From assembly GCA_029938045.1 (NCBI GenBank), contig JAPYOT010000011.1, positions 1-37,279 of the forward strand: DNA of 37,279 nucleotides. Reading direction: 5' to 3'. Each line of letters starts with the position of its first letter. The stretch's first letter is position 1. Of this stretch, positions 10,529-14,861 are shown piece by piece. Below the pieces are notes generated by a model. It made no database searches. It had not been told where the DNA came from and worked only from the letters and a program-made list of their open reading frames with translations. The position numbers and the translations under genes are program-made. The stretch is from Fidelibacterota bacterium (GTDB lineage Bacteria; Fidelibacterota; Marinisomatia; Marinisomatales; TCS55).

Positions 10529-11083
10529 TTATGAATTAAAATGATTCATGGTACGATTTAAACCATGCACTAACAGATTTTCCAAAGCATCCGCACCACG
10601 GTTAACCATGGCCTCCGCATTTGCTTTATCTTTTGATCGAAATGGTTTCAAAACAAATTTTTCCGCCGGACGCATATTTTCATCAGTCCCTATTCCCAAA
10701 CGAATCCTCGGAAACTGATCTGAGCTCAGTTGATAAATGATATTTTCCATTCCACGATGGCACCCATCTCCGCCCTTGGGTCGAATGCGAATAGTCCCCA
10801 ATGGTAAATCTACATCGTCTACTACAACATGAATATCCGATGACAAAAGATCCCAGCGATTCGCCACATCCTTTACCGCAATACCACTGAGATTCATGCC
10901 TGTGGTTGGTTTGATCATTAACACTTCCCGTCTTTGATGTTGTGCAAATACAAAGGGGCCTTTCCCCGGTTTGTAGGACAATTTTTGTCGACTGACCAAT
11001 TCATCCACCACCCAAAAGCCTGCATTATGTTTTGTATTTGCATATTGATCACCGGGATTCCCTAAGCCAATAATGGCAATCAT
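10529..11083 (-). CDS. pth: Peptidyl-tRNA hydrolase
   Basis: Pth releases tRNA from peptidyl-tRNA that has dropped off the ribosome. The 184-residue length is close to the E. coli enzyme. Key residues are present: Asn9 and His19 (IIGLGNPGDQYANTKHNAG), Asn64 (TGMNLSG) and Asp89-Asp90 (VVVDDVDLPLG). At the position of E. coli Asn114 (GHNG) this protein has Arg110 (CHRG); Lys or Arg occurs there in other bacterial Pth proteins. It overlaps the rplY stop by 4 bp (ATGA) and is followed by hppA after 19 bp. The prs-rplY-pth order is conserved in many bacteria. Confidence 0.96.
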   Translation of the reverse strand: MIAIIGLGNPGDQYANTKHNAGFWVVDELVSRQKLSYKPGKGPFVFAQHQRREVLMIKPTTGMNLSGIAVKDVANRWDLLSSDIHVVVDDVDLPLGTIRIRPKGGDGCHRGMENIIYQLSSDQFPRIRLGIGTDENMRPAEKFVLKPFRSKDKANAEAMVNRGADALENLLVHGLNRTMNHFNS

Positions 11084-11784
11084 GATTCCTTGGAGGTTTC
11101 CCCCTGATCTGCATCATCACTGGAATCTTTTTTGCTATCAGTATCTCCGTCTGCTGCTTCACCTTCAGCCTGTTCACTGTCTTCGCCCTCAACGCCTTCT
11201 TCACCCTCAACTAATTCAGGTTCGGGTTCAACTTCAGCTTTTGGCGGATTACAGGTAACAATGGTTGTATCCTCTGGGGATACTAAAGAAACATCCGCCG
11301 GCAAAACAAGATCTGCAGCTGTCATTGCACTATTTAATTCTAATGTGGATATATCTGCCATAAGATTTTCAGGTACATCCGTAGGTAAACATTCAATTTC
11401 AATGGTGCTGGTTGCTTGGGTTATAAGCCCACCTTCACTAGCGCCTATCGATTCTCCTTCCAATACAATTGGAATTGAAACAGTCATCTTTTCATCTCGA
11501 CGGACACGCATTAAATCAACATGTATCACTTCTTCGGTTACTGGATGATATTGCGCATGTTTAATCATGGTAAAAACAGTTTCTCCATTGATATCGCATT
11601 CAAACACACGCTGACCCGATTTCACTGCATGAAGGAAATCTTTTTTATCAATAGCCAGATTTTGGTTCGGTTCACCATGATAATAATAATTTGCAGGGAT
11701 TTTCCCATTTCTTCTTATTTTACGCACTGAACCTGTTCCGATTTCAGATCGTTCCTCAGTTGGGAGTTTATAGTAGGAAGCCAT
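11080..11784 (-). CDS. rplY: 50S ribosomal protein L25/general stress protein Ctc, with acidic tail (bL25)
   Basis: bL25 binds 5S rRNA. The 234-residue protein is the long CTC/TL5 form: an N-terminal L25 domain (about 5-95, GSVRKIRRNGKIPANYYYHGE), a C-terminal TL5-type beta domain (about 100-185, VLEGESIGASEGGLITQ), and then an extra acidic tail (about 187-234) rich in Glu, Asp, Gly and Ser. The tail is longer than usual and resembles the one on S6 in the same cluster. The gene lies between prs (15 bp gap) and pth (4 bp overlap), a conserved neighbourhood. Confidence 0.95.
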   Translation of the reverse strand: MASYYKLPTEERSEIGTGSVRKIRRNGKIPANYYYHGEPNQNLAIDKKDFLHAVKSGQRVFECDINGETVFTMIKHAQYHPVTEEVIHVDLMRVRRDEKMTVSIPIVLEGESIGASEGGLITQATSTIEIECLPTDVPENLMADISTLELNSAMTAADLVLPADVSLVSPEDTTIVTCNPPKAEVEPEPELVEGEEGVEGEDSEQAEGEAADGDTDSKKDSSDDADQGETSKES

Positions 11785-11799
11785 TTTTCTTACCTCTAA

Positions 11800-12744
11800 T
11801 TAAAATTCGAAAAGGGCGCTAACCGACTCACCTTCATATACTCGACGAATCGCTTCTCCAAAAACCTGCGCCACACTTACAATTTCCATATTATCTAATT
11901 TTTTATTTTCTGGGATAGATACAGTATCTGTCACAATTAATTTCTTTATTGCCGATTCTTTAATCCGTTCAATTGCCGGACCAGATAAAAGTGCATGTGT
12001 TGCGACAGCCGTCACGCTCTTTGCCCCATTATCTTTTGCCGCATTTGCTGCATTTACTGTCGTACCCGCTGTATCAATCATATCATCAATGATGAGAACA
12101 TCTTTATCTTTTAAATCTCCAATCAAGTGCATGACTTCAGCCTTATTCGGTGCATAACGGCGTTTATCAATTAATGCAAAATACATCCCTAATCTTTTTG
12201 CATATGCTTGGCTCATTCGCGCTGAACCTACATCCGGAGCCAATACAGTTGATTTTTTAGGATCAAGCCCTAAATTGTTAATTGCGTCCATTAAAACCAT
12301 TCGACTGTATAAGTGATCAAATGGTATGGTAGCAAACCCTTGAATCTGGGTCGAATGTAAATCCATGGTTATGATTCGATTGGCGCCCGTTGCAGTCATA
12401 AGATCAACCATCACCCTTGATGAAATTGGCACCCGAGGATTGTCTTTTCGATCCTGCCGGCCATACCCAAAATATGGGACTACCGCCGTCACCGTATTGG
12501 CAGATGCACGGACGGCTGCATCAATGATCAAAACCAACTCCAGTATGTTTTCTGCAGGACTATTCGTTGGTTGAATGATGAATACATCACGACCGCGGAT
12601 GTTTTCTTCAAACTTAATCCATAGCTCACCATCAGAAAAAGTTTTGATGGATAATATGCCCAGTTCTATCCCCAAAGAATCGGCAATTTTTTGAGCCAAA
12701 ACCGGATTACTCCGACCCGAAAATATTTTTAGATTTTTATCCAT
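11800..12744 (-). CDS. prs: Ribose-phosphate pyrophosphokinase (PRPP synthetase)
   Basis: Prs makes PRPP from ribose 5-phosphate and ATP for purine, pyrimidine, histidine, tryptophan and NAD synthesis. The 314 residues match class I enzymes. Motifs include FSGRSNPVLAQKIADSLG at the N-terminus, the flexible-loop region YGRQDRKD, MDLHSTQIQGF, and the PRPP-binding DVLIIDDMIDTAGTT. The start is fixed by family alignment, and it lies just 10 nt after the 3' end of tRNA-Gln with no Shine-Dalgarno sequence in that gap. Translation therefore begins either on the unprocessed tRNA-mRNA or on a very short leader. Confidence 0.97.
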   Translation of the reverse strand: MDKNLKIFSGRSNPVLAQKIADSLGIELGILSIKTFSDGELWIKFEENIRGRDVFIIQPTNSPAENILELVLIIDAAVRASANTVTAVVPYFGYGRQDRKDNPRVPISSRVMVDLMTATGANRIITMDLHSTQIQGFATIPFDHLYSRMVLMDAINNLGLDPKKSTVLAPDVGSARMSQAYAKRLGMYFALIDKRRYAPNKAEVMHLIGDLKDKDVLIIDDMIDTAGTTVNAANAAKDNGAKSVTAVATHALLSGPAIERIKESAIKKLIVTDTVSIPENKKLDNMEIVSVAQVFGEAIRRVYEGESVSALFEF

Positions 12745-12754
12745 AATGTTTCTG

Positions 12755-12825
12755 CTGGGGCGCAGGGACTCGAACCCCGACTGCCTGGACCAAAACCAGG
12801 TGTCCTACCGTTAGACGACGCCCCA
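12755..12825 (-). tRNA. tRNA-Gln (anticodon TTG)
   Basis: A complete cloverleaf folds on the minus strand: acceptor TGGGGCG/CGCCCCA, D stem GTCT/GGAC, anticodon stem CCTGG/CCAGG around the loop TTTTGGT (anticodon TTG, reading CAA and CAG), and T stem CGGGG/CCCTG with loop TTCGAGT. The length is 71 nt, the discriminator is G, and CCA is not encoded. It lies inside the cluster between ispE and prs, the same place where a tRNA-Gln is found in Pseudomonas-type genomes as I recall. Confidence 0.97.
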
Positions 12826-12866
12826 ATACTTATTTTGCATTGAGTGGTGTGATCCAAAAAGGAGGG

Positions 12867-13703
12867 TTATGTGGGGTTAGCCAGAATGGTCTGATGTGCT
12901 GGGTGGAAAAATAACTCAGCTTCTTTTGCAGAAGCGTCTTCGTCAAAAATCCCATACACAGTCGAGCCACTGCCCGACAGACTGGCAAACCGGGCGCCCA
13001 ATTCAAGCAACTTCTGCTTTATGGCACCAATCTCCGGATATGCTGGAATCACGATCCGTTCAAAATCATTCTCAAAGATCTCAAGTGAGGAATTATCCCC
13101 ACTAAAAAAGCTTGTAAAATTAGGTAAAATATTCCCTGATTTCAATTTATTTTTTATTTCTGCATATGCCCATGCTGTGTTGATAGAAATATGAGGAAGA
13201 ACCAAAAGATAAGTGCCCTTAATATGGCTTGTCAGTGACGTTAGATTATCCCCGATTCCTTCACCCAGCTGTGTACCACCTTTTATAAAAAAGGGCACAT
13301 CTGCGCCAATCGAGGTGCCAATTTTTTCTAATTCATCCACAGATAACTCAAGGTTGTATATTTTGTTTAACCCTTTTAAAACAGCGGCGCCATTGGCTGA
13401 TCCACCTCCGAGACCGGTCCCCACAGGTATGCGTTTTTCAATATAGATTGATACACCACCTAACTCAGAATATTTTATTTTTAATGCTGTGTAGGCTTTG
13501 TGACAAATATTGGATTCATCTGTTGGAACCCAATCCACATTTGACGTGAGTGTACAACCGGAGTCCGCTTTTTTAATGGTGATTGAATCCCCAAAATCCA
13601 GTTCCTGAAAAACCGTATATATATTATGGTATCCATCATTCCGTTGGGACAATATTTTAAGGCCGATATTGACTTTAGAAAATGTGGGGCAATCCAAGCC
13701 CAT
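12867..13703 (-). CDS. ispE: 4-diphosphocytidyl-2-C-methyl-D-erythritol kinase
   Basis: IspE is the ATP-dependent fourth step of the MEP isoprenoid pathway and a GHMP-superfamily kinase. The 278 residues fit the family. It has the N-terminal substrate site FSKVNIGLKILSQRNDGYHN, the GHMP ATP loop PVGTGLGGGSANGAAVLKGLN (about residues 90-110), GADVPFFI with the expected catalytic Asp, and the C-terminal SLSGSGSTVYGIF. It starts two bases after the ispF stop, so ispD, ispF and ispE form one translation-coupled unit. It is followed by tRNA-Gln and prs. Confidence 0.95.
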   Translation of the reverse strand: MGLDCPTFSKVNIGLKILSQRNDGYHNIYTVFQELDFGDSITIKKADSGCTLTSNVDWVPTDESNICHKAYTALKIKYSELGGVSIYIEKRIPVGTGLGGGSANGAAVLKGLNKIYNLELSVDELEKIGTSIGADVPFFIKGGTQLGEGIGDNLTSLTSHIKGTYLLVLPHISINTAWAYAEIKNKLKSGNILPNFTSFFSGDNSSLEIFENDFERIVIPAYPEIGAIKQKLLELGARFASLSGSGSTVYGIFDEDASAKEAELFFHPAHQTILANPT

Positions 13704-13705
13704 TT

Positions 13706-14182
13706 TTAACCTGTTGTTATTGTGGCAATGGCCTGGGCGGCGATGCCTTTGCCTTCACCAATATATCCCAGATGATCTGTTGTGGTTGCTTTTACCGAAA
13801 CAGATGATTCATCTATTTGCAGGGTATAGGCGATTTTATATTTTATTTCCGGTATAAATCCCGACAGTTTTGGTTTCTGAAGTACAATGATCGAATCAAT
13901 ATGCTTAATCTCAAATTCCGCTCCTCGTACTTTTTCTCCAGCTATATTTAAAAAGTGTAAGCTGTCCGCATCTTTCCATTGGTCATCTTCGCTGGGAAAA
14001 AGTTGACCGATATCGCCAAGATTCGCTGCTCCTAATAACGCATCCACAATGGAATGGATTAATGCATCACCATCAGAATGACCAACAGCACCTACTTCGC
14101 TAGGAATTACCACACCACCAAGAATGAGTTTTTCACCCTCGGACAATTGATGTACATCGTATCCTATGCCTGTTTTAATCAT
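13706..14182 (-). CDS. ispF: 2-C-methyl-D-erythritol 2,4-cyclodiphosphate synthase
   Basis: IspF cyclises CDP-ME 2-phosphate to MEcPP with release of CMP. The 158-residue product has the expected zinc-binding GYDVHQL (Asp9, His11 type ligands), LGGVVIPSEVGAVGHSDGDALIHSIVDALLGA with the third ligand, and the C-terminal VKATTTDHLGYIGEGKGIAAQAI. It functions as a trimer. It overlaps ispD by 8 bp. Having IspD, IspF and IspE together indicates that this organism makes isoprenoids by the MEP route; ispC, ispG and ispH are not in the window. Confidence 0.97.
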   Translation of the reverse strand: MIKTGIGYDVHQLSEGEKLILGGVVIPSEVGAVGHSDGDALIHSIVDALLGAANLGDIGQLFPSEDDQWKDADSLHFLNIAGEKVRGAEFEIKHIDSIIVLQKPKLSGFIPEIKYKIAYTLQIDESSVSVKATTTDHLGYIGEGKGIAAQAIATITTG

Positions 14183-14861
14183 GTTGTAGGTGATTATAAA
14201 TTGCTTCTGCGAACACCCAATCCTCTTTGGTGGTTATTTTAATATTCAAGGACGATCCTTCTACAAAACCCACCTGATAGCCAATTCTTTCTAATAATGA
14301 CGCTTCATCCGTCCCTTGGATATTTTCCTCCTCCGCCATTTTTAATGCTTCCTGCAATACGGATTTAGAAAAAACCTGTGGTGTTTGGGCCCGCCAGATT
14401 ATTTCTCGCTGAAGTGTTTCTAAAATTTGATTATCCATGACTTTTTTAATTGTATCCGTGGAGGGTTGTGCCACGATTACACCATCGTGTTCACTGCAGG
14501 CATTCACTGTTTTTTCAATTAATTCTTTTGTTACAAAGGGACGCACTGCATCATGAACACAAATAAGTTCCGATGAATCACTCGCTGCTTTCAGTCCGTT
14601 AAAGACTGATTTTTGTCGTGTATTCCCACCGGATACAACCGTTACCGGCTTTACTGAAATCATGGACTTGAGTTCCCGGCTCAATTGCTGTACATCATTT
14701 TTAGGCGCCACAACTACAATTTCAAAAATTAAATCAGAATCAATAAACGGCTTCAGCGTATGAAACAGTAGTGGGCGGCCACCCATAATTTTAAGCTGTT
14801 TTTTTCCGCCAAACCGTTCTCCGCTCCCTGCAGCCGGAATGACAGCTGTAATTTTCGTCAT
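14175..14861 (-). CDS. ispD: 2-C-methyl-D-erythritol 4-phosphate cytidylyltransferase
   Basis: IspD joins MEP to CTP to give CDP-ME. The 228-residue protein has the nucleotidyltransferase loop ITAVIPAAGSGERFGGKKQLK, in place of the usual GxGxRxGxxxPKQ, and then VVSGGNTRQKSVFNGL, CVHDAVRPFVT and WRAQTPQVF, all diagnostic of IspD. The final segment SSLNIKITTKEDWVFAEAIY fits the family C-terminus. It overlaps ispF by 8 bp and follows queA after a 19-bp gap. Confidence 0.96.
   Translation of the reverse strand: MTKITAVIPAAGSGERFGGKKQLKIMGGRPLLFHTLKPFIDSDLIFEIVVVAPKNDVQQLSRELKSMISVKPVTVVSGGNTRQKSVFNGLKAASDSSELICVHDAVRPFVTKELIEKTVNACSEHDGVIVAQPSTDTIKKVMDNQILETLQREIIWRAQTPQVFSKSVLQEALKMAEEENIQGTDEASLLERIGYQVGFVEGSSLNIKITTKEDWVFAEAIYNHLQHD

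Follow-up and report, generated by a model that had tools for sequence, protein, structure and literature searches.

A tRNA-Gln(UUG) gene lies ten bases ahead of prs, the gene for ribose-phosphate diphosphokinase (PRPP synthetase), in the genome of a marine bacterium of the Fidelibacterota, and the two genes are neighbors in all 59 prs loci read from its order. The linkage is fixed in this order sample and the spacing is not. The apparently old pairing, with its lineage-labile, very short and Shine-Dalgarno (SD)-free junction, is a variant of the tRNA embedded in a protein operon. The window, as the term is used below, is the whole 37,279-nucleotide stretch of DNA that was analysed.

The junction between tRNA-Gln and prs

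The relevant features of the window are as follows.

14175 to 14861, minus strand: ispD (TIGR00453, 230.1 bits, over the cut-off)
13706 to 14182, minus strand: ispF (TIGR00151, 184.1 bits, over the cut-off)
12867 to 13703, minus strand: ispE, the upstream gene, ending 41 nt before the tRNA (TIGR00154, 217.5 bits, cut-off 138.7)
12755 to 12825, minus strand: tRNA-Gln(UUG), CCA not encoded (Rfam RF00005, 58.6 bits; ARAGORN)
12745 to 12754, minus strand: ten-base junction CAGAAACATT, from discriminator base to start codon, without SD motif (sequence)
11800 to 12744, minus strand: prs, 314 aa (open reading frame and profile matches)
11080 to 11784, minus strand: rplY/ctc (ribosomal protein bL25), next after prs (TIGR00731, 161.9 bits, over the cut-off)
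10529 to 11083, minus strand: pth, aminoacyl-tRNA hydrolase (TIGR00447, 164.9 bits, over the cut-off)

These genes form a same-direction run on the minus strand (ispD, ispF, ispE, tRNA-Gln(UUG), prs, rplY/ctc, pth), with the single strand and the short spacers (41 nt from ispE to the tRNA, 10 nt from the tRNA to prs) that characterize a tRNA embedded in a protein operon. On the coding strand, the discriminator base G73 (12755) is followed by the junction bases (12754 to 12745) and then by the prs ATG, which starts at 12744. The separation of ten bases given in a preliminary description of this DNA is borne out by the sequence and by the Rfam end of the tRNA; ARAGORN, which calls a tRNA-Gln with anticodon TTG at 12754-12825 (minus strand), leaves 9 nt. 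The bases after G73 are CAG, which means that CCA is not encoded. The same description saw no SD sequence before prs, and indeed no SD-like 4-mer is present, no motif lies 5-13 nt before the ATG as in SD-led initiation, and the best pairing with the anti-SD reaches only -0.5 kcal/mol, all as in a leaderless or short-leader message.

The product is recognized by NF002320 (409.7 bits, cut-off 297) and by Pfam PF13793 and PF14572, and its best named match among those listed is from an uncultured Marinimicrobia genome (83% identity), Marinimicrobia being the phylum labelled Fidelibacterota in the survey of named loci below. From the preceding in-frame stop to codon 10 there is no second ATG, GTG or TTG, which rules out other starts in that range. 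Because the conserved block KIFSGRSNP already begins at residue 6, a later start is unlikely as well, and with it the downstream initiation that the description had named as fatal to its reading.

The assembly to which the window belongs is 91% complete and has 32 tRNAs, one of them tRNA-Gln. When only positive distances are ranked, the few listed ORFs that overlap a tRNA being left aside, this tRNA-Gln is the nearest of the 32 to a following ORF start (9 nt by ARAGORN); the next-closest distances, to predicted ORFs, are 18 and 21 nt. An encoded CCA was found in none of the tRNAs having a readable 3' flank. The CCA-adding family is present in 53 of the 61 genomes sampled from the order, and its absence from this genome was taken as an assembly gap.

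Linkage and spacing within the order

The order sample comprised 61 genomes, including that of the window; a prs match was obtained in 59, and the sequence before prs was read in all of these. A tRNA-Gln lies directly upstream of prs in 59 of 59 loci, which is more than chance would give. The nearest same-strand upstream tRNA is Gln(UUG) in all 58 loci called by ARAGORN. In the remaining locus, L047, the contig begins within the tRNA gene and contains its 3' half. The upstream gene is also shared, with ispE found there in 58 of the 59 loci.

The distance from the discriminator base to the prs start, which the preliminary description had proposed to compare across related genomes, is not kept. 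Over the 59 loci it varies between 2 and 282 nt, is at most 10 nt in 16 of them and is below 20 nt in 32. A quickly built prs tree, in which numerous inner branches are weak and 29 rows are partial, requires the gap to have switched between short and long at least 11 times. Even within the genus of the window, the gap is 95 nt in L040, 91 nt in L041 and 149 nt in L035. Spacing held by selection, as would be expected of a switch between tRNA and prs, is thus not what this range and this number of changes show.

The most extreme junctions occur in L056 and L060, from one genus, where the sequence GGCAGCCATG consists of the discriminator G, CCA and the ATG, so that the encoded CCA of the tRNA-Gln overlaps the prs start codon by one base, the shared A. 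Judged from this arrangement, if the encoded CCA stays on the tRNA, a single transcript could not supply that tRNA and also leave the prs start intact; a cut in front of CCA would give prs a leader of 2 nt.

Linkage in other phyla

A wider survey covered the best 80 named bacterial loci among the matches listed, so that the shares below are not frequencies; phylum labels were taken from record titles, some perhaps outdated, and two of the 80 loci had no usable upstream sequence. A tRNA-Gln(UUG) on the same strand and within 210 nt of prs was found in 31 of these loci, under ten phylum labels: Fidelibacterota (6/6), Thermodesulfobacteriota (6/7), Myxococcota (3/7), Acidobacteriota (3/5), Nitrospirota (2/7), Balneolota (2/2), Pseudomonadota (2/2), Ignavibacteriota (1/3), Bacteroidota (1/1) and Aminicenantota (1/1), in addition to all four unassigned loci. 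It was absent, again among the best 80, from Bacillota (0/25), Campylobacterota (0/3), Chlorobiota (0/2), Gemmatimonadota (0/2) and three single loci of other phyla. All 33 upstream tRNAs in the best 80 loci are Gln(UUG), including one on the other strand and one 826 nt away. The gaps in other phyla with the linkage are mostly longer.

Since the linkage occurs in 59 of 59 loci of the order and in 31 of the best 80 named loci under ten phylum labels, the simplest reading of these gene orders is that it would be ancient and ancestral, and lost in several groups. Titles and abstract openings of the literature searched gave no description of a tRNA-Gln/prs linkage; reports elsewhere may exist.

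Shine-Dalgarno use

SD use in this genome is weak but present, and the absence of a motif before prs is ordinary. Of the 28 window genes chosen for comparison, ten are preceded by an SD-like 4-mer. In a sample of 424 kb (20 stretches plus the window), 19 of the 63 ORFs with an unambiguous ATG have an SD motif, versus 14% in shuffles, and 37% of the 63 starts pair with the anti-SD as weakly as that of prs or more weakly. Many genes of the genome are without an SD motif, so that no particular cause need be sought for its absence before prs. The window's own assembly returned no 16S match; the anti-SD GGATCACCTCCTTTC is retained in all seven full-length 16S genes read from relatives, which argues against its loss.

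Across the 59 loci, an SD motif occurs in none of the 32 gaps under 20 nt versus 15 of the 27 longer gaps, a contrast that is partly mechanical, as short gaps offer few positions; a comparison of SD against gap by independent pairs yielded only 3 starred pairs. Five loci from other phyla with ARAGORN gaps of 15-23 nt (L125, L132, L140, L180 and L183) all carry an SD-like motif. On this small sample, short gaps without an SD seem to be characteristic of the Fidelibacterota.

Expression of prs

We consider it fairly probable that prs is co-transcribed with the tRNA, freed by tRNA excision with a leader of at most about ten bases and translated without an SD, the linkage being ancestral and the compaction tolerated. 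The transcript would run from ispD through ispF, ispE, tRNA-Gln, prs and rplY to pth, with prs as a downstream cistron. RNase P would act at the 5' end of the tRNA and an endonuclease on its 3' side, within the ten-base junction, leaving a prs mRNA whose leader, at most about 10 nt, would be CAGAAACAUU or part of it. SD-free translation, as is common in this genome, would follow. The nearly absent leader after tRNA maturation, as the preliminary description proposed, is supported by this anatomy, and near-leaderless translation of prs is likely. The very short junction would be a lineage-specific compaction tolerated by selection and not a conserved switch.

Excision probably helps prs translation, since a folded acceptor stem so near the AUG falls within the usual 30S footprint and the uncut RNA would be a poor 30S substrate. 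A single in-silico fold of the precursor RNA partly retains the acceptor stem. For the message predicted after processing, folding leaves the ten bases of the leader 60-98% unpaired but places the U and G of the AUG, for the most part, in base pairs of a small hairpin that involves early codons. This partly paired start codon is a counter-point to the favored account, although one in-silico fold is not informative on access to the prs start.

Alternatively, prs could have a promoter of its own, located in ispE or in the tRNA gene, which would provide an mRNA with a normal leader and leave the short gap without consequence. This we regard as unlikely. The gaps of 91-282 nt in some relatives do indicate that prs works with longer leaders, and a promoter-like site lies inside ispE on the minus strand (13235-13206), although it is no better than chance expectation. 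Promoter-like sites are not in excess in the region 11600-14000 (8, versus 6.8 +/- 2.7 in shuffles), and a sigma-70 scan of the minus strand from 12745 to 13205 returned none; the sigma-70 model may not fit the phylum, and may thus have missed a promoter that lies in ispE or in the tRNA gene. In six of the 58 loci that could be compared in the order, moreover, the spacer from ispE to the first tRNA is 2-11 nt, which leaves no room there for a promoter. These spacers, together with the lack of excess promoter-like sites, favor read-through from the isp genes. No terminator is listed between the tRNA and prs, and one weak terminator-like site lies inside ispE (12935-12919). From this layout, prs is predicted to be co-transcribed with the isp genes and tRNA-Gln. 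Any transcript starting upstream of the tRNA would in any case still contain it and would be cut. The preliminary description had held that a separate promoter would overturn its reading, and nothing in the sequence points to one between ispE and prs.

The predicted tRNA 3' cut

A tRNA gene without an encoded CCA, such as this one, is what an RNase Z-processed junction would have. The RNase Z model TIGR02651, which exceeds its cut-off in 9 of 14 control genomes, does so in none of the 61 genomes of the order, though the tRNAs of the window's own genome are without encoded CCA. The best TIGR02651 match in that genome scores 32.3 bits, in an assembly 91% complete and with a model that could miss a divergent enzyme; the best RNase Z match there fits PqqB better (110.4 versus 37.6 bits). 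RNase Z-like proteins that score 80.8-92.7 bits, short of the cut-off, occur in six relatives in the order, and the two of these proteins examined also match a cyclic-nucleotide phosphodiesterase model. Since these searches gave no canonical RNase Z, a different enzyme may make the cut, perhaps RNase E/G.

A more specific version, in which an RNase E/G-like enzyme replaces RNase Z and cuts at AC|AUU to leave prs a 3-nt leader, is doubtful. It has in its favor an RNase E/G in the window's own genome (491.6 bits, over the cut-off), the absence of RNase Z scores over the cut-off, the PqqB-like character of the best RNase Z match, and a junction whose last bases, ACATT, fit the RN|WUU core of Salmonella RNase E as given in the accessible part of PMC5222698. 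Furthermore, ATT stands immediately before the ATG in 32 of 59 prs genes, compared with 4 of 33 ispE genes, 3 of 28 rplY genes and 4 of 63 genome starts, and RNWTT ends at -1 in 22 of 59 prs genes versus 1 of 33 ispE and 3 of 28 rplY genes. Against this, ATT is not tied to short gaps: long-gap prs genes carry it too, which rules it out as a mark of short gaps, and independent pairs of ATT against gap length go both ways. ATT before prs is therefore not proof of a cut site and may be a translation signal or an inheritance. The motif derives from Salmonella, and the RNase Z-like proteins of the six relatives, though below the cut-off, also count against this version. In the accessible part of PMC3848588, on P. 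acnes, an organism likewise described there as having no obvious RNase Z, the authors judged RNase E unlikely for cuts inside CCA.

Possible licensing and control

A stricter form of this proposal, a bacterial tRNA punctuation in which, in this Fidelibacterota family, an RNase E/G-like 3' cut, without canonical RNase Z, is required before prs can be translated, follows from placing the tRNA inside the ribosome footprint; we think it quite improbable. Under such licensing, the shared A in L056 and L060 would force a choice on each transcript, between a tRNA that has its encoded CCA and a prs start that is intact.

The least probable reading, and an unlikely one on present evidence, is dedicated control, put forward in the preliminary description, in which the rate of tRNA-Gln processing would set PRPP synthesis and selection would keep the link: the nearest tRNA is always Gln(UUG), both in the order (58/58) and among the best 80 named loci (33/33), and the stem lies within about 11 nt of the ATG in many genomes (gap of at most 10 nt in 16/59), but the gap length shifts readily (between 2 and 282 nt, with 11 or more changes, and 91, 95 and 149 nt in the same genus), gaps in other phyla are mostly longer and all five of 15-23 nt come with an SD-like motif, the linkage is absent from 25 of 25 Bacillota loci among the best 80, and operon inheritance equally explains the conserved gene order. 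A regulatory role for the junction is possible, and conservation gives it no support.

Comparison with known systems

The arrangement recalls the tRNA-tufB operon of E. coli, which we take to be a tRNA gene embedded in a protein operon with a much longer spacer. In both, a same-direction tRNA directly precedes a protein gene and excision would set the 5' end of the downstream message; unlike tRNA-tufB, the window has a gap of ten bases and no SD. In mitochondrial tRNA punctuation, tRNA excision creates message ends at or near start codons. The present, putative case differs in concerning one junction in one operon, not a whole genome. If excision does expose the prs start, one RNA cut would, as in mitochondria, both make a tRNA and activate a central metabolic gene.

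The five loci from other phyla with gaps of 15-23 nt have the same tRNA, gene and strand as the window; unlike them, the window and 31 other loci of the order with gaps below 20 nt have no SD motif. The tRNA-Gln(UUG)/prs series, with gaps of 2-282 nt and with or without an SD, offers a natural test of how proximity of a structured RNA affects a start codon. The accessible part of PMC3848588 counts 88 messages in P. acnes whose 5' end lies no more than 10 nt ahead of the start codon. The predicted prs message resembles these short-leader and leaderless mRNAs in having its start equally close to the 5' end and in lacking an SD; as far as that part of the report goes, the P. acnes ends are transcription starts, whereas the prs end would arise by tRNA processing.

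Inserts, spacer motifs and additional tRNA genes

Four relatives (L035, L050, L051 and L058) have a palindromic insert between tRNA-Gln and prs. Its hairpin shows compensatory changes, and it carries a repeat of the tRNA 3' end GCGCCCCAGC, placed exactly 93 nt downstream. A model of the insert finds diverged copies elsewhere, directly before tRNA-Thr(CGT) in L220 and L222.

L220, 1501 to 1557, minus strand: diverged copy (insert model)
L222, 487 to 543, minus strand: diverged copy (insert model)
L221, 1501 to 1550, minus strand: further site noted for the insert

The L220 copy is flanked by a repeat of the tRNA-Thr(CGT) 5' end. From these sequences, the insert looks like a small mobile element preferring tRNA gene ends.

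The spacer between ispE and the tRNA in the window (12826-12866, minus strand) contains GGATCAC/GAATCAC, which recurs in L031-L041 and in L056 and L060; the stretch CCTCCTTTTTGGATCAC of this spacer also looks similar to a shuffled 16S tail. In nine of the 59 loci (L052, L054, L056, L060, L061 and L083-L086), tRNA-Gln is itself preceded by another tRNA, which is Asn(GTT) in eight and called Ser(GCT) in L054.
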